From Polynucleobacter acidiphobus (GTDB lineage: Bacteria; Pseudomonadota; Gammaproteobacteria; Burkholderiales; Burkholderiaceae): DNA of 64,000 bases. Position numbers and translations under genes: made by a program. Shown piece after piece: positions 5,912 through 64,000 of this stretch. The notes beneath the pieces were generated by a model that searched no databases, was not told where the DNA came from, and was given only the letters and a program-made list of their open reading frames with translations. The stretch covers positions 1,080,829 to 1,144,828 of the forward strand of contig NZ_CP023277.1 in the NCBI RefSeq assembly GCF_003065385.1, written 5' to 3'. The first letter of the stretch is position 1. The number at the start of each line of letters is the position of its first letter.

Positions 5912-5956
5912 CTGTTAATCCGCAGGTCCCTGGTTCGAGTCCAGGTCGGGGAGCCA
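5912..5956 (+). other. orphan 3' half of tRNA-Asn(GTT): probable island attachment site
   Basis: The sequence runs from the anticodon loop CTGTTAA through the variable region AGGTC, the T arm (CCTGG, TTCGAGT, CCAGG) and the 3' acceptor strand to a G and an encoded CCA. The 5' half is missing: the five bases before the loop cannot pair with the anticodon stem, and no D arm or 5' acceptor precedes it. A break at the anticodon loop is typical of tyrosine-recombinase attachment cores. In such insertions the intact tRNA remains at the other end, so the island should extend to the left and include the copper genes. Confidence 0.8.
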
Positions 5957-28808: not shown

Positions 28809-29054
28809 TTAACGATCAGCCATTGCCATAATTTCTGCGGCGGTTACATAGCCCTTCTTCTGGGTATCAATGCGCTGGAAGTTGGCTGCAACTCTTGGCA
28901 TTCCAGCTTTTGCTTCCTCTAAGGTCAACTTGCCATCCTTATTTTTATCGGCAGCTGCAAAGCGCTCATCAATCTCGCGATCAGTTCTTGATTCTTGAGC
29001 GAATGTCGTACCAAGGGCTGCAAGCATAATTAAAGAGAATGCGGCTTTCTTCAT
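28809..29054 (-). CDS. small exported EF-hand protein
   Basis: Exported protein of 81 residues: a signal peptide (MKKAAFSLIMLAALGTTFAQ) followed by two EF-hand loops. The first, DKNKDGKLTLEE, has a full set of calcium ligands. The second, DTQKKGYVTAAE, is canonical at the first position but weaker at positions 3 and 5. Calcium binding in the periplasm is likely for the first loop. The ATG at 29054 has AAGGA about eight bases upstream. It begins 20 bases after the amidohydrolase stop and probably shares that transcript, a pairing I cannot explain from known pathways. Confidence 0.83.
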   Translation of the reverse strand: MKKAAFSLIMLAALGTTFAQESRTDREIDERFAAADKNKDGKLTLEEAKAGMPRVAANFQRIDTQKKGYVTAAEIMAMADR

Positions 29055-29073
29055 GAACACGATCCTTATGTGA

Positions 29074-52347: not shown

Positions 52348-53616
52348 TCAAGCCACAGCGACCTTCCCTAGTGATGGCTTGGGATAAAAGCGGGGCTGAT
52401 GTGCCGATCCATCAATGATGTCTGCGATCATCTCGGCGGTACATGCCGATAGTGTCCACCCCAAATGGCCGTGACCGGTGTTATAGAACACGTTGGCCTG
52501 CTTGCCTTTCCTAACTCTAGGAAGCATATTGGGCATCATCGGACGCAGGCCTGCCCATGGCACAACCGAGCGCGTGTTCACTTTCGGGAAACATTGCTCT
52601 ACCCAGTTCACAAGAGGCTTAATCCGATCCATCCGAATATCACGGTTTTCGCCATTAAACTCTGCAGTGCCGGCAATCCGGAAGCGATCAAGTCCCAAGC
52701 GACTCGTGACTAGTTTGGTCTCATCATCCAAGAGACTGACGGTTGGTGCGCCCTGCTGACTTCCCTCATCATTGAGGTTCACCGTAATCGAATAACCTTT
52801 GACAGGATAAACATTCAAGCGATCGCCCAGTTGTGCAGCTAAATCACGACTGGCGATGCCAGCACACACCACAATGTTGTCAAAGCTCAATTGCTCTTGG
52901 TGTTCGTTGTTCTTTAGCTGAACGTGAACTTTCTCGCCATTCGATTGCACCTGGACCACCTCGTGATCATGAATGAATGTCACGCCGAGTCGTTCGCAGG
53001 CTTTGGCAAGCCCTACGGTGAACTTATGAATATCACCCGTAGAATCACTCTCCGTGTAATACCCGCCGTAATACTCTCCGGAGAGTGTGGGCTCAATTAA
53101 TTTCATCTCAGACGGTGTAACGGCTTCGCGTTGTAATCCACCCATTGCTAGGAGTTTGGATACTTCACCGGCATGCTTAAATCCGGCTTGATCACGGTAA
53201 ATATGCAAGATCCCCTCTTTTTTGAGATCAAAATCAATACTCTCCTGCTTTGCCCAGCTAAACAAATGGTTTCTGGCATCAATCGCCATCTTGGCCGTTT
53301 GAATGGTATTGGCTTTGTAGTTTGGGATCGCTGCCATAAATTCAGCAAACCAGGATGCTTTATGCCAACTGGGTTTCATATTGATCAGTAGCGGTGCATC
53401 CTTTTTGAAGATCCATTTGAGGCCTTTGAATACCGTACCCCAGTGGTTCCAAACCTCGGCATTTGAGGCGGAGAGCTGACCGCCGTTGGCAAAGGAGGTT
53501 TCCATTGCGGCATAGCGATGCCGTTCAATCAAAGTAACGCGATAGCCGCGCTTGATAAGTGCGTAAGCAGTAGTGACGCCCGTAATGCCGCCACCAATAA
53601 TGACATAGGATTTCAT
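52348..53616 (-). CDS. dadA: D-amino-acid dehydrogenase
   Basis: Flavoprotein of 422 residues that oxidises D-amino acids to 2-oxo acids and ammonia. The FAD motif is IIGGGITGVTTAYAL, and the C-terminal block NTGHGHLGWTLSACTAEM is characteristic of DadA. The ATG at 53616 is chosen rather than a TTG at 53631. The leader carries a tandem glycine riboswitch (53671-53849), which implies that glycine turns it on, so glycine or a D-amino acid made alongside it is a plausible substrate, as glycine oxidases belong to the same superfamily. No racemase gene is next to it. Confidence 0.9.
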   Translation of the reverse strand: MKSYVIIGGGITGVTTAYALIKRGYRVTLIERHRYAAMETSFANGGQLSASNAEVWNHWGTVFKGLKWIFKKDAPLLINMKPSWHKASWFAEFMAAIPNYKANTIQTAKMAIDARNHLFSWAKQESIDFDLKKEGILHIYRDQAGFKHAGEVSKLLAMGGLQREAVTPSEMKLIEPTLSGEYYGGYYTESDSTGDIHKFTVGLAKACERLGVTFIHDHEVVQVQSNGEKVHVQLKNNEHQEQLSFDNIVVCAGIASRDLAAQLGDRLNVYPVKGYSITVNLNDEGSQQGAPTVSLLDDETKLVTSRLGLDRFRIAGTAEFNGENRDIRMDRIKPLVNWVEQCFPKVNTRSVVPWAGLRPMMPNMLPRVRKGKQANVFYNTGHGHLGWTLSACTAEMIADIIDGSAHQPRFYPKPSLGKVAVA

Positions 53617-53670
53617 GGTTGGTCCAATCAATACGTCGGGGGTTAAAGCTCATTGGCACCATGCGCAATG

Positions 53671-53849
53671 AACACCCCCTCTGTTTTGGACCTGAGAGAT
53701 TCGCAAGTCAGAGACTTGCTTGCTCCTGCGGTGCTTTAGTTGACGTAACTAAAGGCTCTTCAGAGTTTGCAGTGATATCGGTTCTTTTGCCTGAGAGTTT
53801 CCGGGGTGGTTGCTCCTTCGGCGCTGTCAATACAGTCTCTCCCGATACC
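53671..53849 (-). ncRNA. tandem glycine riboswitch in the dadA leader
   Basis: On the minus strand two glycine aptamers lie in tandem. The first (about 53849 to 53777) has CGGGAGAGA, GCGCCGAAGGAGCAA and CTCTCAGGCAAAAG-ACCG. The second (about 53770 to 53671) has GCACCGCAGGAGCAAG and CTCTCAGGTCCAAAACAGAGGGGG. These match the two-aptamer gcvT consensus. A short linker of about 55 bases to the dadA ATG is the expression platform, and it contains TTGGACCAA around the likely ribosome site, so control of translation initiation is possible. Glycine riboswitches usually control glycine cleavage or export genes; dadA is a less common target. Confidence 0.93.
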
Positions 53850-53973
53850 AATCCTACAACTACGACTTCATTCTAGGTTTGCCTGATCAAGACTGTCAAC
53901 TGCATAACTCTGGCTTCATTTCACCTATTGAAATTAATCCAGGAATCGTGTCTGGCGCCCTATACAAAATCTC

Positions 53974-54560: not shown

Positions 54561-54596
54561 AATGGGATCCTGTTTGAGATTCGTGGTGTCGGCAAG
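54561..54596. repeat. degenerate copy C of the 'TGTCGG' intergenic repeat
   Basis: ATGGGATC, a spacer of 14 bases and TGGTGTCGGCA correspond to ATGGGATC, 15 bases and TGGTGTCGGCA in copy B at 60157. The hairpin part is missing. Homology is weak and may be chance. Confidence 0.4.
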
Positions 54597-56315: not shown

Positions 56316-56409
56316 GGGCAGGAATAATGGTTTTAAGCTTGTTAATTGAATTCTCACAGATAAATTGATTGTAAGGGAGCCTCATTACCGGGAAGATTAA
56401 TTGACCCTT

Positions 56410-56480
56410 GGAGCTGGGTTGGGCCAATCCAAACTTTATGTCGGGGTCATATTCAAGCGTTTGTCGGGAAAACCGACATT
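56410..56480. repeat. copy A of the 'TGTCGG' intergenic repeat
   Basis: Shares a 25-base identical core (56457-56481) with copy B at 60200-60224 and a similar left part (GGAG-T/C-TGG...). The core forms a hairpin TGTCGG-GAAAA-CCGACA. It lies in the 164-base gap between an amidohydrolase and the MFS gene. Nothing else is evident in that gap. Confidence 0.75.
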
Positions 56481-56521: not shown

Positions 56522-57709
56522 TTAAATAAAAAAATTCCTTTCAGATCTCTTAAAAACCCAAAACGCCATTAAGAAGAAAGCAATGATTGCGCAGCTGCCT
56601 GAGAACATAAATGCATAAAAGGGGCTTATGGATTCATAGATCCAGCCAAAGATAATTGAGGCCGGTAATAACATTAGGCCATTAATCAAATTAAACCAAC
56701 CAAAGGCCGTTCCCGTGAGACCTTTGGGTGCTAAATCAGCAACCAAGGCTTTTTCAACTCCTTCGATTGCTGCTTTAAATAAGCCATAGACAATGAATAA
56801 CCCAAAGACTTGATAGATGCTCGCACTTGGTAACCCCATGCCAATATAAAACAATGCAAATGCAAGCCAAGCAATCAGAATAAAGCGCTTGCGCCCCATG
56901 GTATCGGATAGCGCTGATAACGGCGTTCCAAAGATGGTAGTGATCAGCGATATCGCAGCCCATAGAAGCGGGATTTGCTCTTGAGGAACTCCCAATTCTT
57001 TGGCTCGGAGCAGCAAAAACATGTCCGAGGAATTACCTAAGGCAAAAATTGCGGCCACAATCAAGTAGCGCTTAAATTCAATGGGCATCCCCTGTAAAGA
57101 CCAACTAAAGCGATAACGTGTTAAAGCGCTGGTTTGGGAAGGTTCCTGAATATAGAGTGCTAACCCAATCGCAATGACTGCAGGAATAATGGCCCACAGG
57201 AAAATGTCTTGGATTGGCATACCCTGAGCCAGCAAGAATGCTGCCAGCAATGGTCCGATCACGGCGCCCGCATTATCCATCGAGCGATGTAGGCCAAACG
57301 TGACGCCACGTTGGTTCTCAGGTACGGTTTCTGCCAAAAGAGCATCTCTGGGTGAGGTTCTCAAACCCTTACCCATCCGATCGGTAAAACGGATCGCGAC
57401 CACCCATAACCACGAATTAGCGATGGCAATGAGAGGACGACTAAAGCCCGCCAAAACATAACCCAGAACGATCCATGGCTTGGCTTTTTTGGTGCGATCC
57501 ACAATCACACCCGAAACCAATTTAAAGATACTGGAAGATGCCTCAGCAATTCCCTCGATAATGCCCAGCGCTTTGGGTCCTGCCATTAATACTGTTGCCA
57601 AATACAGCGGCATTAAGGGATAAACCATTTCACTGGCGGCATCGTTTAGAAAACTAATAATGCCAATTAGCCAGACGGTGCGAGGGAGCGCGAGGATGGT
57701 TTTAACCAT
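56522..57709 (-). CDS. MFS transporter
   Basis: Transporter of 395 residues with twelve transmembrane segments. The loop between helices 2 and 3 is GVIVDRTKKAKPW, and that between helices 8 and 9 is SDTMGRKRF, both standard MFS motif A variants; helix 4 holds RFTDRMGKGLRTSPRDALLAE. This resembles drug or metabolite exporters of the MFS_1 group. It lies between two amidohydrolases, so it could move a product or substrate of those enzymes, an inference from position. ATG start with no strong ribosome site. Confidence 0.87.
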   Translation of the reverse strand: MVKTILALPRTVWLIGIISFLNDAASEMVYPLMPLYLATVLMAGPKALGIIEGIAEASSSIFKLVSGVIVDRTKKAKPWIVLGYVLAGFSRPLIAIANSWLWVVAIRFTDRMGKGLRTSPRDALLAETVPENQRGVTFGLHRSMDNAGAVIGPLLAAFLLAQGMPIQDIFLWAIIPAVIAIGLALYIQEPSQTSALTRYRFSWSLQGMPIEFKRYLIVAAIFALGNSSDMFLLLRAKELGVPQEQIPLLWAAISLITTIFGTPLSALSDTMGRKRFILIAWLAFALFYIGMGLPSASIYQVFGLFIVYGLFKAAIEGVEKALVADLAPKGLTGTAFGWFNLINGLMLLPASIIFGWIYESISPFYAFMFSGSCAIIAFFLMAFWVFKRSERNFFI

Positions 57710-57996
57710 GATGCTTCAACTCTAACACCATAGTTAATCGACAGTGGCAGGTAAATCAAGCAGTTTTAACAACAACGCATTGGGCAGCAGTTAAGCCAGT
57801 ACCGCGTATTTAAATCGATTGCCTACCATTTAGAGGAATTGGCAGATCTGAGAAGCACAATACTATCAATGACTTATTGCGTCCTAGGTTAAGCAAGTGA
57901 GTGGGCACTGGAACCAAATAACCTCAAAGTCAAAATAAAAATATACTCTTTCTTAAGCTAATTTATGCGCTAACAGCGGGGTGTTTAGTAGTAGCA
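57710..57996. other. 287-bp intergenic region, divergent promoters likely
   Basis: Gap between the divergent MFS and amidohydrolase genes. It is AT-rich near 57930-57960 and must hold two promoters, but no operator, hairpin or small gene stands out. Confidence 0.4.
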
Positions 57997-60024
57997 ATGA
58001 CTCATTTATCAAAAATTTTGTTTGTTCTGTTGCTATCTTGGAGTATGCTCGCGCAGGCTCACGATACCAAGCGTCCCCGTATCGGCGCTCCGAATCAGCA
58101 AACCCCTGCAGGCGTTCCCGAAAACTGGGGTACCTATTGCGTTACAGAACTTGCGCCCCTATTCCGTGAGGCATTGGCACTATACGGCTCCAATAATCTA
58201 ATGATTAGCAAGCCCTATGGTGGTCAATTTAGTAAGGCTCCAAACCTTTCTTCAGGTAGCAACCCCCTACCGCGCGTGTTACCGAAAATTCCGTTTACAC
58301 CCCCTGTCCATATTGGACAGAAAGATAAAAAGATCACAGTCTATGTGGCTAAGAAAATTGTCACAATGGATCCTGGATGGCCATATGCTACTGCAGTAGC
58401 GGTTCAAGATGGACGCATCCTCTCCGTTGGCAGCTTTGAGGATCTCAAACCCTGGCTCGATAAGCATCCCTATGAAATCAATACTAGCTTTAAAGATAAG
58501 GTGATGTATCCCGGCTTTATCGAAGCGCACGGCCATCCGGTCATGGGCGGGATTGCAATTAGTCTTCCACCCCTGACCTACTACCCCTTACGTAATCCCT
58601 ATGGCCCTGAATTCCCAGGCGTAAAAAACTATTCCGAGATGATTACTAAGCTCAAAGAATATGTCGCACAAGCCAAGTCCCCCGATCAAACGATCTTGAC
58701 CTGGGGCTTTGACTCGGTGGCCATGGGTGGCAAAAATCCTACCAATATAGATTTAGATAAAGTCTCCAAAACCAATCCGATCATCCTATGGGATGCCTCA
58801 GAGCACTTTGTTTTTGCGAATTCAGCAGCCATTAAAAAGTATGGCGTTACGAAAGAACAGTTAGCTAAAACGATTGGTGCTGGACGCAATCCTGATGGAA
58901 GCTCCAACGGTCAGTTTTTAGGTACCGAGGCAGCAAAGCTCATTATGCTAAAACCCCTCGCTGAAATATTAACGCCCGAGCGAGGCCTATACAGCTTACG
59001 CTACATTAGCGCACTCATGCAGCAGGCAGGAATTACCACCACGGGCGATCTTTTCTATGGCGGCGTTAACTTAGATCTCGAAAACCAACTGGTCAATGAG
59101 GTATTCGGTGGACCTAATGCAAAGGCTCGAATTGTGCATGTGGTTGATGGCATCACGTTCATGGGTATCTACGGCTCCAAAGCGATTGACCAAGCCATTG
59201 CATTACGTAAACGCAGTAATGATCAAATCATTTTTAATGGTGTTAAATTTTTTGCCGACGATGCATTTGTAAGCCTTGGGATGCAGTTGGAATGGCCTGG
59301 ATACATTGACTCCGATAAATACAAAGGGCTATTTATGTTTAATAGCCGCGATGATTTTCTCAAAGCAATGCGGCCTTGGTGGCAAACTGGCTTTCAGATT
59401 CATGTCCATTCCAATGGCAGTGGCGGCAATCAAATTACCCTTGATGCACTCGAGATCCTACAGGCTGAGCACCCTCGCTTTGATCACCGCTTTACCTTCG
59501 AGCATTTTGGTATCTCGACAACCGCACAAGGACGTCAATTAAAGGCCTTGGGTGCAATTGTTAGTACCAATCCGTACTATGTCAGTGAGCGTGCTGATAT
59601 CAATGCCAACTATATCGGCACTGATCGTGCATCCTTAGCTGCTCGAATGGCCTCTCTCATTAATCAAGATGTGGTGGTTGCACTCCATTCGGATACCCCC
59701 GTCGGAATCCCATCGCCCTTACTGGAAGTTTGGATTGCAGTAAACCGGGTCGGCAGTCAATCTGGCAAAGTACATGCGCCCTATGAGCGGGTTTTAGATG
59801 TCAATCGGGCAATGAAAATGGTGACGATTGATGCTGCTTATGCTTTAGGTATTAATGATCGGGTTGGCAGCATCGAGGCGGGTAAATTTGCTGATTTTGT
59901 GGTGCTTGAAACCGATCCACAAGAGGTTGATCCTCTCAAAATTAAGGATATCCCAGTTGTTGCAACAATCCTTGGCGGTCGCCCTACCCTCACTTCCGAA
60001 ACTAAAACACCAAACTGGAAGTAA
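57997..60024 (+). CDS. exported YtcJ-type amidohydrolase with an extended N-terminus
   Basis: Protein of 675 residues with a signal peptide (LAQAH). Between it and the amidohydrolase core (VYVAKKIVTMDPG) is a segment of about 85 residues with a conserved-looking NWGTYCVTELAPLFREALALYG and Pro-rich stretch, absent from the closely related 602-residue paralogue. Metal ligands are HGH in EAHGH, HSNGS, FEHF and LHSDTP. The gene ends only five bases before an orphan tRNA-Arg fragment. Substrate is unknown. Confidence 0.88.
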   Translation: MTHLSKILFVLLLSWSMLAQAHDTKRPRIGAPNQQTPAGVPENWGTYCVTELAPLFREALALYGSNNLMISKPYGGQFSKAPNLSSGSNPLPRVLPKIPFTPPVHIGQKDKKITVYVAKKIVTMDPGWPYATAVAVQDGRILSVGSFEDLKPWLDKHPYEINTSFKDKVMYPGFIEAHGHPVMGGIAISLPPLTYYPLRNPYGPEFPGVKNYSEMITKLKEYVAQAKSPDQTILTWGFDSVAMGGKNPTNIDLDKVSKTNPIILWDASEHFVFANSAAIKKYGVTKEQLAKTIGAGRNPDGSSNGQFLGTEAAKLIMLKPLAEILTPERGLYSLRYISALMQQAGITTTGDLFYGGVNLDLENQLVNEVFGGPNAKARIVHVVDGITFMGIYGSKAIDQAIALRKRSNDQIIFNGVKFFADDAFVSLGMQLEWPGYIDSDKYKGLFMFNSRDDFLKAMRPWWQTGFQIHVHSNGSGGNQITLDALEILQAEHPRFDHRFTFEHFGISTTAQGRQLKALGAIVSTNPYYVSERADINANYIGTDRASLAARMASLINQDVVVALHSDTPVGIPSPLLEVWIAVNRVGSQSGKVHAPYERVLDVNRAMKMVTIDAAYALGINDRVGSIEAGKFADFVVLETDPQEVDPLKIKDIPVVATILGGRPTLTSETKTPNWK

Positions 60025-60028
60025 CGGT

Positions 60029-60073
60029 TAGCCTGCGTAGCAGGAGTCGAACCTGCGACCTACGGCTTAGAAG
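60029..60073 (-). other. orphan 3' half of tRNA-Arg(TCT): probable island attachment site
   Basis: On the minus strand the sequence runs from the anticodon loop CTTCTAA through AGGTC, the T arm (GCAGG-TTCGACT-CCTGC) and an acceptor strand to a discriminator G; the CCA is changed to CTA. The 5' half is absent, since the bases before the loop cannot pair with the anticodon stem. This mirrors the tRNA-Asn fragment at 5912, which also breaks at the anticodon loop. The layout implies an island to the right (60074 onward), with the intact tRNA beyond the window. Confidence 0.75.
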
Positions 60074-60156
60074 GGCTGGCTAATCTGCTTTAGACAATGT
60101 CAATTAATGGCTTAAAGTGCCCTGATTTGTGTGTTCGTCAAAACAAGGGTCGTCAT

Positions 60157-60223
60157 GGAGTTGGATGGGATCTCGTGTGGGTAGTCATGGTGTCGGCAGG
60201 CGTTTGTCGGGAAAACCGACATT
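60157..60223. repeat. copy B of the 'TGTCGG' intergenic repeat
   Basis: Full copy of the repeat: a left part GGAGTTGG, a TGGTGTCGGCA block and the 25-base core (60200-60224) identical to copy A, with the TGTCGG/CCGACA hairpin. It lies in the gap between the tRNA-Arg fragment and the PanB-like gene's terminator, a position where attachment arm sites or other recombination elements are found. Confidence 0.75.
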
Positions 60224-60234
60224 TGAATAATGGA

Positions 60235-60262
60235 AACAAAAAAAGGCCACGCGAGGTGGCCT
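60235..60262 (-). terminator. Rho-independent terminator of the PanB-like operon
   Basis: On the minus strand AGGCCAC-CTCGC-GTGGCCT is followed by seven or more T. It lies 25 bases beyond the PanB-like stop. Confidence 0.88.
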
Positions 60263-60286
60263 AATTGGAGACATGCAAAACTAGAA

Positions 60287-61174
60287 TTAAATTTGTTTTC
60301 TTTTTTCGACCATTCCTAAAAACTTTTCATACTCTTTTTCGTCAACTGAGTAACTGTGGTCATCATCAGGAAATTTTCCAGATTTAACTTCACCAATATA
60401 TTCTTTGATACCTTTTACCGCAACTTCAGTAAGATTCGCATAACGTTTTGTGAACTTTGGCTTGAAATCAGAAAAAACACCTAAGAGATCATGGCACAAA
60501 AGAATCTGACCATCTGTCCCTACTCCGGCACCAATTCCTATGGTTGGAATTTCTAGTTGCTTGGAAATAACAGTCGCAATCTTCGCAGGAACAGCCTCAA
60601 ATTCCAACATGAAGCAACCGGCATCCTGAATCGCAAAAGCATCTTCAAGAATTTTCATGGCAGTCTCTGCTGTTCTTCCCTGAATTCGAAATCCTCCAAA
60701 TACAGCAACGGTATGGGGAGTCATTCCAATATGTGAAGCAGTAGGTATGCCAGCATCAACCAGAGCCTTAAGGATGTGAGCTTGAGATTTCCCGCCCTGA
60801 GGCTTTACAGCATCACATGCAGCATCTTGCATGAAGCGAGTGGCGTTCTGTAGGGCGCGGTCAATTGTGTTGTAGCTTTGATAAGGCATGCACCCCAAAA
60901 CAAAAGTATTGGGGGCTCCCCTGCGTATGGATGCTGCATGCATAACCATCATATCCATGGTTGCAGGAATCGTATTGGGATGACCATGCGCGATCATGGC
61001 GAGACTATCGCCAACCACTGCAACATCAACACCGGCTGTTTCAGCCCATTTTGCAGATGTGTAATCAGGAACTGACATATAGACCATTTTTTCACCGGTC
61101 TTTTTTGACTCCCGAATCTCTTGTAAATTTCGCTTCTTTTTTTCAGTTGCGCCTGACCCTACAGGTATATTCAA
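60287..61174 (-). CDS. PanB-like (ketopantoate hydroxymethyltransferase family) protein with altered metal ligands
   Basis: Protein of 295 residues in the PanB/PEP-mutase-like barrel family. Conserved family elements are D56 (VVGDSL), K124, H148 (HIGMTPH), GGFRIQGR, E193 (EAVP) and IGIGAGVGTDGQIL. Two of the three metal-coordinating residues differ from PanB: the aspartate of ADLPF is C95 and the glutamate of VKIEGG is Q126. Enzyme activity on ketopantoate is therefore doubtful. The start is a TTG with AGGAG six bases before it; the earlier frame overlaps the upstream gene. Its operon with an oxygenase and a TRAP transporter suggests catabolism of an organic acid. Confidence 0.82.
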   Translation of the reverse strand: MNIPVGSGATEKKKRNLQEIRESKKTGEKMVYMSVPDYTSAKWAETAGVDVAVVGDSLAMIAHGHPNTIPATMDMMVMHAASIRRGAPNTFVLGCMPYQSYNTIDRALQNATRFMQDAACDAVKPQGGKSQAHILKALVDAGIPTASHIGMTPHTVAVFGGFRIQGRTAETAMKILEDAFAIQDAGCFMLEFEAVPAKIATVISKQLEIPTIGIGAGVGTDGQILLCHDLLGVFSDFKPKFTKRYANLTEVAVKGIKEYIGEVKSGKFPDDDHSYSVDEKEYEKFLGMVEKRKQI

Positions 61175-61194
61175 AATATTCTCCTTTAATTTGA

Positions 61195-62100
61195 CTACAT
61201 CATTACCTTTTCTGCATCTTCTTGTTGCTGCAATGAAAAAATCGAAGAGTAACCGCCCGACCAATCTGGTGGGATAAGACATGGCAATGGATCATGATGG
61301 GCAAATTGAGCCCTTTTTCCGGTCAAGATTACCTGATCATGTTTTGGTTTTAACGGGTTCACTGTATATGGGAATGCATCTGCTGAAGTCAGCGTATAAA
61401 GCAATAAAGGCCTTCCCAAATTAGATTGATTTGCTGGTGATCCGTGTATAGTTCGACAATTATGTAAGGTTAAAGAGCCGGCAGGCCCAGTTAAATAAAC
61501 GGCTTTTTCAATATGAACCTTTTTAATATCTCCGTCAGACAGGCAGCCAACCCATTTTCCTGTTTCATCGTACTGACTCATCATTGGTTCAAGCAAATGA
61601 CTTTTTGGGATTACGCCTAATGGTCCTTGATCCATTCCACAATCATACAAATAGGTACCGATTGTTAATGGTGAGTAGTTGGTATGTGGCCAGAATGAAA
61701 TATCGTAGTGCCACTTCACCTCTTCACCACCCTTTTGCCATTTGAAATTTAACTTGGAATGATGAAATTTCACATCGGGACCTACTAGGTCAGCGACTGC
61801 ATCTAGCATGGGCGATTTACTTACATATTCCCAGAAAACTGGGTGATGCTCTGTCGGATTGGATACTCGCCGCAATCGAGGATCAGAAGGTGTATGATCA
61901 GGCTCAAGATCAAAGATCATGTCCGATTTAGTCACCTTCTTGCTTCGCTCAACAAGCTCATTAGTTGCATCGCGTAATTTGGTCAACCATTCATCATCAA
62001 TGAATTTCTCTAACAAAATATATCCATTATCGAAATAATCCTCACGCTGCTTTTGTGTAAGAACGCGTGCTGGAATCTTCAGAATTTGTTCAGGGGTCAT
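61195..62100 (-). CDS. phytanoyl-CoA dioxygenase (PhyH)-family Fe(II)/2-oxoglutarate oxygenase
   Basis: Protein of 301 residues with a double-stranded beta-helix oxygenase core. The iron ligands are H131 and D133 (WHYDISF) and H219 (IHGSPA), with R230 (GRPLLLY) for the 2-oxoglutarate. The family hydroxylates small molecules such as phytanoyl-CoA, ectoine or phosphonates. AAGGAG lies about nine bases before the ATG. It sits between the TRAP large subunit and the PanB-like gene, suggesting that it oxidises the transported substrate. Substrate is unknown. Confidence 0.88.
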   Translation of the reverse strand: MTPEQILKIPARVLTQKQREDYFDNGYILLEKFIDDEWLTKLRDATNELVERSKKVTKSDMIFDLEPDHTPSDPRLRRVSNPTEHHPVFWEYVSKSPMLDAVADLVGPDVKFHHSKLNFKWQKGGEEVKWHYDISFWPHTNYSPLTIGTYLYDCGMDQGPLGVIPKSHLLEPMMSQYDETGKWVGCLSDGDIKKVHIEKAVYLTGPAGSLTLHNCRTIHGSPANQSNLGRPLLLYTLTSADAFPYTVNPLKPKHDQVILTGKRAQFAHHDPLPCLIPPDWSGGYSSIFSLQQQEDAEKVMM

Positions 62101-62111
62101 CTTAATTCTCC

Positions 62112-63434
62112 TTATCTAAAGTTCAACATCACACTTGGTAAATAAGTTACCAAAGATGGAAAAGTCATCACAATTACTAAAGTCAAAGACTGAAGTACGA
62201 TAAATGGAACAACGCCACGATACATATGCTTAATATTGATTTCCTCAGGAGCAACAGCGCGTAAATAGAAGATTGCTGGCGCCATCGGAGGTGTTAGATA
62301 AGAAGTCTGAATCACAATGAGAAATAGAATACAAAACCAGACTGGGTCAAAACCAGCGCTTGTTATCAGTGGCGTAAAAAGAGGTACAAAAATTAGGACA
62401 ATTGAAATCCAATCAAGAAAAAAGCCGGAGAGGAAAATAATCGATAGCATCAATGCAAGGAGTACCCACGGACTTAATTGCATTTGATTGATGATGTTAT
62501 TTGCAGTATTGATCCCACCACCTCCTATAAATACGCCTGTAAATAGAGATCCCGCCAATAAGACCGCCATAATCATTGCGGTTATTAGCAGCGTTTTTAT
62601 TAATGCTTGATACAAACCTTTCCAGGTAAAGTTTCTGTATAGAACTGTTAATAAAACTGAGGCGATCGCTCCAATTGCAGCAGCCTCGGTCGGGGAAGCT
62701 AAACCAAAGAGGATGGAGCCTAAGACTGCCACGATCATGAGTAATGGGGGCACAAGATTTTTTGTTGAAATCCAAATTTTTTCTCGAAAGCTGGGCTCTC
62801 CAGGCTCGGGTGGAATGCGAGGACCTCTATCAGGGTAAATAACACACAAGGTAAAAATATAAATTAAATACAGAGAGGCCATAATTAGGCCAGGAAATAC
62901 CATTCCGTACAGTAAGTCACCCACAGAGACTGTAGCCAATGGGCCCATGACGACCGCAACAACGGACGGAGGTATGATTGTTCCAAGCGATCCACCAGCA
63001 CAAATAGTTCCCGAAATTAAACTTTTGTTGTATTTGTAGCGCAGCATAATCGGTATGGTTAAAAGTCCTACTACGGACTCTGTAGCGCCAATAACTCCAC
63101 TAGAAGCTGCAAAAATAATGCACATAATGACGGTCGCTAATGCCAAACCGCCGGGTAAACGCCTTGTCCAAATATGGATAGCTTCAAATAGCTTATCTGC
63201 AATTCCTGATTTTTCAAGAATTGCGCCCATAAAAACAAATAATGGAATCGCTGCAAAAACAAAATTTGACGAAATATCTTCTATTTTTTCAATAAATTGA
63301 AAAATTACACGATCGCTAAAAATATAGAGCCCAAATAGAACGGCCGTAATCATCATTGCAAAGGCAACTTGTACACCCAAAAACATCAGTACAAATGCCA
63401 TGGGTAACATTAGGAATGGAATAATGTCACTCAT
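62112..63434 (-). CDS. TRAP transporter large permease (DctM-like)
   Basis: Inner-membrane subunit of 440 residues with about twelve helices; the DctM signature is seen in LLTIPIMLRYKYNKSLISGTICAGGSLGTIIPPS and the C-terminal LDWISIVLIFVPLFTPL. It forms the transport channel of a TRAP system that imports carboxylates or related compounds with sodium and a periplasmic binding protein. It overlaps the small permease gene by eight bases. The binding-protein gene (dctP-like) is not in the window and may be to the right. Confidence 0.92.
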   Translation of the reverse strand: MSDIIPFLMLPMAFVLMFLGVQVAFAMMITAVLFGLYIFSDRVIFQFIEKIEDISSNFVFAAIPLFVFMGAILEKSGIADKLFEAIHIWTRRLPGGLALATVIMCIIFAASSGVIGATESVVGLLTIPIMLRYKYNKSLISGTICAGGSLGTIIPPSVVAVVMGPLATVSVGDLLYGMVFPGLIMASLYLIYIFTLCVIYPDRGPRIPPEPGEPSFREKIWISTKNLVPPLLMIVAVLGSILFGLASPTEAAAIGAIASVLLTVLYRNFTWKGLYQALIKTLLITAMIMAVLLAGSLFTGVFIGGGGINTANNIINQMQLSPWVLLALMLSIIFLSGFFLDWISIVLIFVPLFTPLITSAGFDPVWFCILFLIVIQTSYLTPPMAPAIFYLRAVAPEEINIKHMYRGVVPFIVLQSLTLVIVMTFPSLVTYLPSVMLNFR

Positions 63435-63930
63435 GGCTAACGGCCTTATATTTCTGGAGAGATTTCATAATCTCTGCATAGACTTGTAATGCAAGTAGGG
63501 CAAATGCGATTAGGAAAACAACTCGAAATGGCCATACTGGCATATTCATTGCTGATTGGCCACTACGTTCACCTTTTATAAATCCAGAAACCAAATATCC
63601 AGTTAAGCCGTACGTTAGCCACAACATCAACGGTAAAATGATTGAATAGGAACAAATATCAATTAAAGCTCGCGTCTTTGCGCTCATTGCTTGGCTAAAA
63701 ATATCAATTCGAATAAATTGACCCTGCTGAAGGGTATATGCCATCCCTAATAAAAAGTGGCTACCGGTTAGCATGTAACCAACCTCATAAGCCCAAATAG
63801 TAGGCGCCTCAAATACATATCGGGCAATTACTTCATATGTTGTAGTAAGTACCAGTGGCACCAAGGCAAGAGAGGCCAAAATTCCAATATTGCCTGTCAA
63901 ACGTTCAATCTGATTAACAAACGGACTCAT
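63427..63930 (-). CDS. TRAP transporter small permease (DctQ-like)
   Basis: Membrane protein of 167 residues with four helices, the DctQ layout. Typical elements are the charged TTTYEVIARYVFEAPTIWAYEVGYML segment and the QGQFIRIDIF loop. It pairs with the large permease that follows. Its upstream region has a strong minus-strand hairpin with a T run, so readthrough from a gene to the right could be limited. Start ATG with weak ribosome site. Confidence 0.9.
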   Translation of the reverse strand: MSPFVNQIERLTGNIGILASLALVPLVLTTTYEVIARYVFEAPTIWAYEVGYMLTGSHFLLGMAYTLQQGQFIRIDIFSQAMSAKTRALIDICSYSIILPLMLWLTYGLTGYLVSGFIKGERSGQSAMNMPVWPFRVVFLIAFALLALQVYAEIMKSLQKYKAVSHE

Positions 63931-63950
63931 GTTTTACTTTTCTGATGTGA

Positions 63951-63984
63951 ATGGAAAAAAGGAGGTCTAACTTATTAGACCCCC
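63951..63984 (-). terminator. terminator-like hairpin before the DctQ gene
   Basis: On the minus strand GGGGGTCTAA-TAAG-TTAGACCTCC is followed by six T. It stands just upstream of the small permease gene. It may end a preceding dctP transcript or act as an attenuator that lowers permease expression relative to the binding protein. Confidence 0.78.
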
Positions 63985-64000
63985 TTTACACATTACTTTT

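Follow-up and report, generated by a model that had tools for sequence, protein, structure and literature searches.

A tRNA-Arg(TCT) 3' half in Polynucleobacter acidiphobus as one of the repeated attachment sites separating gene blocks at a single tRNA gene

Organization of the tRNA-Arg Locus

The window, i.e., the whole 64,000-nucleotide stretch of DNA analysed, corresponds to bases 1080829-1144828 of the P. acidiphobus genome (1.85 Mb, one contig). Gene content and a 91% protein match to Polynucleobacter sp. UBA962 point to the same genus. Near the right end of the window, the 3' half of a tRNA-Arg(TCT) is found on the minus strand (60029..60073), forming the attachment core of a site called f3. 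Read on this strand, its 45 bases (CTTCTAAG...CAGGCTA) run from the CTTCTAA anticodon loop to a CTA end and differ at three positions from the corresponding part of the intact tRNA-Arg(TCT) in this genome. A preliminary description of the window, made from the letters alone, had reported a break at the anticodon loop, a change of CCA to CTA and a position abutting the end of an amidohydrolase gene. Comparison with the intact tRNA-Arg(TCT) places the start of the half at the anticodon loop, the sequence agrees with the change at the 3' end, and the stop codon of the amidohydrolase lies at 60024, four bases away. No tRNA is called at 60029-60073 by ARAGORN or at the Rfam gathering thresholds, which is expected for a site consisting of half a tRNA.

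Upstream of the half lies a conserved arm of ~150 bp (60074..60222, minus strand; family F3), which is part of the right-hand island. Its outer end carries the palindrome TGTCGG-N5-CCGACA (60205..60221), 131 bp from the f3 half. A 91-base query taken from f3 retrieved two further halves in the genome, f1 (E 3e-26) and f2 (7e-23), together with the intact tRNA (5e-14); apart from these three, the genome-wide DNA search gave no full-length match to the half. With a model trained without f3, the arm and half of f3 score 181 bits, compared with at most 8.8 bits in the reversed window and at most 14.7 bits in 20 first-order Markov simulations. The E values and the distance from these controls argue against a chance resemblance. 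An exact-pattern scan for arm and core in the GTDB collection gave zero matches.

The intact tRNA-Arg(TCT) is located where the preliminary description had proposed to search for it, to the right of the window (genome 1186497-1186573, minus strand), 45.6 kb from f3, and is the only one called by ARAGORN in the 136 kb fetched. Between it and f3 lie f1 (genome 1159450) and f2 (1149972), all on the minus strand. The ~150-bp arm is present upstream of the three halves and absent from the intact tRNA. The tRNA-proximal island A, 27 kb long, contains an alternative oxidase, a coq7-like gene, a recombinase module and metal-efflux-like genes, and has both arms. A reading of the genes between f1 and the tRNA as core genes was dropped, the coq7 homologue being present in only 3 of 24 genomes. 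Island B (9.4 kb) carries GntR, allophanate hydrolase, ABC transporter and fumarase genes, and island C (9.1 kb) PanB, PhyH, TRAP, GntR and formate-THF ligase genes. The latter begins at f3, its left part occupying 60074..64000 (minus strand) and its right end being f2, ~5.1 kb past the window. The "second island border" first proposed at f3 is thus a real border, but not a lone one: it is the outermost well-preserved site of a three-island array. The island predicted to the right, with PanB-like, oxygenase and TRAP genes, is island C. An integrase had been expected on the same side; tyrosine recombinases do occur there, but two islands further on, and none was found in the TRAP island itself.

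Within the window, island C encodes, all on the minus strand, a PanB-like ketopantoate hydroxymethyltransferase (60287..61282, PF02548; the true start is probably within the ORF), a PhyH-family dioxygenase (61195..62100, PF05721) and the TRAP transporter proteins DctM (62112..63434, PF06808) and DctQ (63427..63930, PF04290). DctP, GntR and others continue the island beyond the window. This cargo is not common to all relatives: in the stretches fetched from the 18 other genomes, only G121 has homologues, covering three of nine island C genes (E up to 1e-30). Relatives of the PhyH protein were found at 61 GTDB loci, one of them labelled Polynucleobacter, in a search that may omit the records nearest to the window's genome. 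Homologues of PanB, DctM and DctP occur near 24, 39 and 28 of these 61 loci, respectively. The full set (GntR, a hydroxylase-like protein named by eye without a Pfam match, DctP, DctQ, DctM, PhyH and PanB) is present together at four of the 14 loci listed out of the 61 (L279, L281, L284 and L289). Since the PhyH relatives lie, by title, mostly in betaproteobacterial metagenome assemblies, island C was probably acquired horizontally.

To the left of f3, an F3 site model built without the window copy detected two decayed sites, both intergenic and on the expected minus strand. One is an arm/core site (alignment at 57822..57890, 17.6 bits), and the other an outer arm (56406..56479, 22.7 bits) with its palindrome intact at 56462-56478. 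A weaker match at 54562-54596 (11.3 bits) is not claimed, as it falls under the best Markov simulation (14.7 bits). The decayed sites flank an MFS transporter gene (56522..57709, minus strand), a probable one-gene cassette. The amidohydrolase gene (57997..60024, plus strand) lies between a decayed site and f3; because the decayed copies bracket single genes, it is probably a cassette too. The only close orthologue among 186 genus genomes (81%) belongs to G058, where tRNA-Lys(TTT) lies on one side of it and, on the other, a tRNA-Lys half whose arm looks F1-like by eye. Locus L262 of that genome (contig 6, bases 259371-267239) carries two tRNA-Lys halves after the tRNA-Lys(TTT), an F1-like arm accompanying one of them, which suggests that systems of this kind exist at other tRNAs.

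In the window's own clade, no empty-site locus was found. As a left anchor for this clade, the flank of G002 and G035 gives only a weak link (54-58% protein identity) to the window at ~28.8 kb, where a small EF-hand-like gene (by eye, 28809-29060) resembles the gene downstream of tRNA-Arg in these two genomes; the array may once have extended left as far as this point.

Two further features of the window were recorded. Two tandem glycine riboswitch aptamers (53679-53854, minus strand) lie upstream of ORF 52348-53631, which is FAD-dependent oxidoreductase-like by eye. The tRNA-Asn companion fragment of the preliminary description also exists (5912-5956, plus strand) and is identical to the 3' half of tRNA-Asn(GTT). 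The intact tRNA-Asn is at genome 1069233-1069308 (plus strand), with an integrase gene adjoining it (1069394-1070314). Together with the perfect 3' half, they indicate a classical island of ~17 kb spanning the left edge of the window.

Arrays and Empty Sites in Related Genomes

Stretches were fetched from 19 genomes, 18 of which, all from the same genus and picked because they carry arrays, have at least two sites. These delimit 61 internal segments of 0.7-27 kb (median 4.7 kb) when up to six mismatches per site are allowed, and 67 with up to nine. Ten of the 61 segments contain a recombinase and 51 do not, the latter meaning no match to three local profiles (IntS, IntL and a mid type). A whole-genome PF00589 search covered 12 of the 19 genomes and, at its cut-off, missed the IntL of the window's own genome. 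The longest series belongs to G069, with ten halves and the tRNA spread over 51 kb; no PF00589 match was found in its array stretch, and no IntL match in its genome.

The outer flank of the G004 array was searched in 186 genomes, of which 157 gave a match; in most of these, it covers no more than the tRNA half or a portion of the flank. Among the 19 ancestral-flank loci examined of 30 fetched, ten have an intact tRNA-Arg directly before the flank, i.e., an empty site, six (G004 included) have a half at this position, and three are uninformative. As the same flank follows either the intact tRNA or a half, these arrays are insertions that separate the tRNA from the sequence ancestrally adjoining it.

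Reordering is visible in G063. Two cassettes, P (4.6 kb) and Q (3.9 kb), are each present twice, in the orders P-Q and Q-P, with identities of 98.7% and 98.0%. The two copies of a cassette agree to 98-99% in their cargo and own arm; identity falls to 72% for the neighbouring arm of P, and beyond Q the sequences are unrelated (46.9%; no arm is present there in one copy). Both compared pairs of halves are identical, and the half beside one Q copy has five mismatches. This places the exchange points in or next to the 45-bp half. Cassettes are shared between genomes as well, and their alignments start within three bases after CCA in G031/G121, G007/G011 and G018/G154; the G129 copy of the G031/G121 cassette aligns only from about base 75.

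Two side observations were made in these genomes. One perfect tRNA-Arg half of G031, accompanied by an F1-like arm, lies far from the array (L178 position 1715, genome ~1575.7 kb), a possible ectopic insertion. In G031, G018 and G065 (L079/L080, L085/L086 and L088), a third recombinase type of 338-354 aa is encoded just before a second complete tRNA-Arg(TCT); these islands bring along the whole tRNA.

Arms and Palindrome

Three arm families, named here F1, F2 and F3, comprise 15, 13 and 12 sites, one G069 site being excluded from F3. They occur in 27, 32 and 7 of 151 genus genomes, respectively, and F2 or F3 in 38. Within a family, identity between sites is 64-70% over 100 bp on the arm side, the families having been sorted by the last bases of the arm, and 28-29% over 100 bp on the CCA side. 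The motif CATTG begins 36 bases before the core CTTCT in all three family consensuses. When family profiles are compared, the best-ranking offset is zero for F1/F3 and F2/F3, and zero comes second for F1/F2, at a low overall similarity.

The palindrome TGTCGG-N5-CCGACA forms the outer end of the arm. It lies 130-131 bp from the core CTTCT at nine of the 12 F3 sites, 142-183 bp from it at six F2 sites and 114 bp at two F1 sites. In 926 kb, 38 copies were counted, 17 of them upstream of a site versus 0.48 expected at random placement, and five shuffles of the searched sequence held 0-1 copies in all.

A second arm is present on the CCA side of some sites. It resembles the first arm in inverted order (by eye) and has the same palindrome end at several sites. 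It was detected in six of seven IntS/IntL islands, in none of three mid-type islands and in 14 of 57 recombinase-less segments, nine of the sites having served as seeds of the models (two among the six scoring IntS/IntL islands, six among the 14 other scoring segments). A test pooling all recombinase types, itself partly circular, gives p=0.03. Lambda-type attachment sites have two arms, and the complete islands resemble them in this, most cassettes being one-armed. In islands B and C of the window's genome, no second arm was found, so that these islands may not be excisable.

IntS and IntL Recombinases

Island A encodes two proteins with a PF00589 match: IntS, called at 207 aa (at 188 aa in five relatives) and reduced to the catalytic part, and IntL, of 407 aa. 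A clamp-loader-like ATPase is encoded between them, and a DUF6641 protein beside the pair. IntS and IntL are also encoded together in the arrays of G063, G168, G032, G016, G011, G012, G007 and G152.

The IntL clade, defined by full length and at least 53% identity, is represented in 23 of 151 genomes; this number leaves aside G171 and G155, whose copies are partial (55%). F2 or F3 arms are found in 18 of these 23 genomes versus 5.8 expected (Fisher p 5.7e-9), or in 18 of 25 if the partial copies are added (p 6e-8), both p values overstating independence since the genomes are related. F1 arms (27/151 genomes) are not associated with this clade (5/23, p=0.39). The correspondence is incomplete in both directions: F2/F3 arms are absent from five of the 23 IntL genomes, and this IntL is absent from 20 of the 38 F2/F3 genomes. 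Among candidate stretches listed for an F1-arm recombinase in three F1 genomes (G004, G069 and G031), no shared candidate was evident.

The palindrome also lies 68-72 bp before IntL in seven of ten genes of this clade (five exact, two with one or two mismatches) and in none of four genes from other clades; the window genome's own IntL is one of the three without it. Homologues of IntL of any clade occur in 79 of 151 genus genomes. In a sample of 300 genomes of the order, IntL-like proteins were found in ten, three of the same genus and seven others; as at least four of the 300 belong to the genus, the rate outside it is seven of at most 296. None was found in plasmids (E up to 1e-20) or phages (1e-10).

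The window's genome encodes a second IntL/IntS pair (L257/L258, 1638601-1643408), some kb from a tRNA-Met(CAT); a neighbourhood of this kind is also seen in G168 and G023. Each IntL clade may serve its own tRNA.

Proposed Origin of the Array

The array, its unit boundaries, the empty sites and the reordering with exchange at the half are established by sequence comparison, as is insertion at the anticodon-loop core. The most probable explanation, to which we assign a probability of about 0.75, is that f3 is the attachment site at the far end of one cassette and that the array results from repeated site-specific recombination at the tRNA-Arg(TCT) 3' half, mobility being deduced from these patterns. 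A cassette would then consist of a tRNA 3' half, cargo genes and a ~150-bp arm. With every insertion, which would take place at the anticodon-loop core, an intact tRNA would be restored and the earlier 3' half pushed outward, with the incoming cassette's arm now in front of it. IntS and IntL of island A are the candidate recombinases and the arms their predicted binding sites, with IntL presumably binding and IntS helping. Cassettes without a recombinase may move in trans or in cis with their neighbours, and are possibly served in trans by IntS/IntL. As most recombinase-less segments are one-armed, some of them may be fixed relics. One-armed cassettes could, speculatively, have arisen by the capture of genes adjoining the tRNA.

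A more specific proposal is put forward tentatively. A long tyrosine recombinase and a partner consisting only of the catalytic part would together capture single genes or operons as one-armed cassettes at the tRNA half and shuffle them in trans in an integron-like manner, being tied to their sites by the palindrome before their own gene. Related systems would operate at other tRNAs, as at the tRNA-Lys of G058.

It is rather unlikely that the arrays are instead an accumulation of independent islands, each inserted serially with its own integrase before losing the recombinase and one arm, with nothing acting in trans. Degraded sites do exist (the CTA for CCA, and those at 56.4 and 57.8 kb), one tRNA is shared by several arm families as well as by a third type of recombinase, and the second arm is missing in 43 of the 57 recombinase-less segments. 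Such decay fits poorly with the recombinase-less cassettes of G063, which were recently duplicated and reordered (98-99% identical) by exchange at the half, and with the 51 of 61 segments lacking a recombinase (local profiles), down to 0.7 kb in size. In addition, an ORF ends within 10 bp of CCA at eight of 79 sites (an uncontrolled count), unlike what random deletion would leave.

Reshuffling by homologous recombination between the ~195-bp repeats, without a site-specific recombinase, is considered improbable. The repeats are long and numerous, and the loss of mutS and mutL, which would ease recombination between unlike sequences, has been reported for the Polynucleobacter PnecC cluster, not specifically for the window's genome (PMC5644125). 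Random exchange, however, would often hit the arm, whereas the G063 exchange lies in or next to the 45-bp half, and an empty tRNA can receive its first insertion only through a site-specific event. Finally, tRNA pseudogenes exist, but a chance match or a pseudogene remnant of a duplicated tRNA with no island link can practically be dismissed, given the same arm, strand and break at three sites here and in many relatives, and the empty sites in relatives. Repeated site-specific recombination at the half is thus retained as the preferred explanation.

Comparison with Known Systems

The closest described system found is that of the tandem ssrA islands of Dehalococcoides. The Polynucleobacter array is a variant of these islands, of additive islands at tRNAs and of cis-mobilizable elements, with more of its parts resolved. 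As described, the ssrA islands are bounded by RNA-gene 3'-end repeats with a motif beside the repeat and use a module of one large and one small serine recombinase, 15 islands being without the module (PMC3146451). Tandem 3'-end repeats, a motif next to them, a large and a small recombinase and module-less islands are thus common to both. The target and the enzyme differ: ssrA and a CcrB-like serine recombinase in Dehalococcoides versus tRNA-Arg and PF00589 tyrosine recombinases here, which places the array outside that group. A long arm with a palindrome common to the recombinase gene is found here, and the portions of the Dehalococcoides account considered describe none (PMC3146451).

Additive flexible islands, in which strain-variable cassettes bounded by tRNA-end repeats are added at a tRNA, have been described in Alteromonas, Actinomarinales and Methylophilaceae (PMC4119200, PMC7771536, PMC10872708). 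Here too, cassettes at the same tRNA location are present or absent between genomes, in this case between species. In the descriptions considered, such islands are presented as patterns, whereas the present array has been resolved into units and arms, with empty sites, reordering and two candidate recombinases identified. Cis-mobilizable elements, as described, have no recombinase and are kept between attachment sites beside a complete element (PMC5704250). In agreement with such tandem accretion, 3'-end direct repeats delimit the elements of the array, with one intact proximal copy, and most elements are without integration genes (51/61 segments, local profiles). Compared with the cis-mobilizable elements described, up to ten halves occur per array (G069), and the cassettes consist of one or a few genes.

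The layout is also integron-like, with arrays of small recombinase-less cassettes having one conserved site each. The recombinases are not IntI, as TIGR02249 gives only 38 bits for IntS and 19 bits for IntL at a cut-off of 265, and the site is a tRNA half plus an arm, unlike in integrons. Tycheposons are tRNA-targeted cargo elements with a tyrosine recombinase. Judged by their description, only island A, which combines tRNA insertion and a tyrosine recombinase, can be likened to them (PMC10872708). No description of such an array in Polynucleobacter was found in the literature searched, which did not cover Hoetzinger et al. 2017 (AEM).

Taken as one of the repeated attachment sites separating interchangeable gene blocks at a single tRNA-Arg of freshwater Polynucleobacter-like bacteria, f3 belongs to an array that is a tRNA-based counterpart of integron gene cassettes. 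Through its arms, its two recombinases and the palindrome common to both, the movement of recombinase-less cassettes in "additive" islands becomes directly accessible to experiment. Genes of metabolism (for transporters, oxygenases and hydrolases) are seemingly added and swapped as cassettes at one tRNA in these small genomes, and a stray tRNA fragment becomes a readable record of gene gain.
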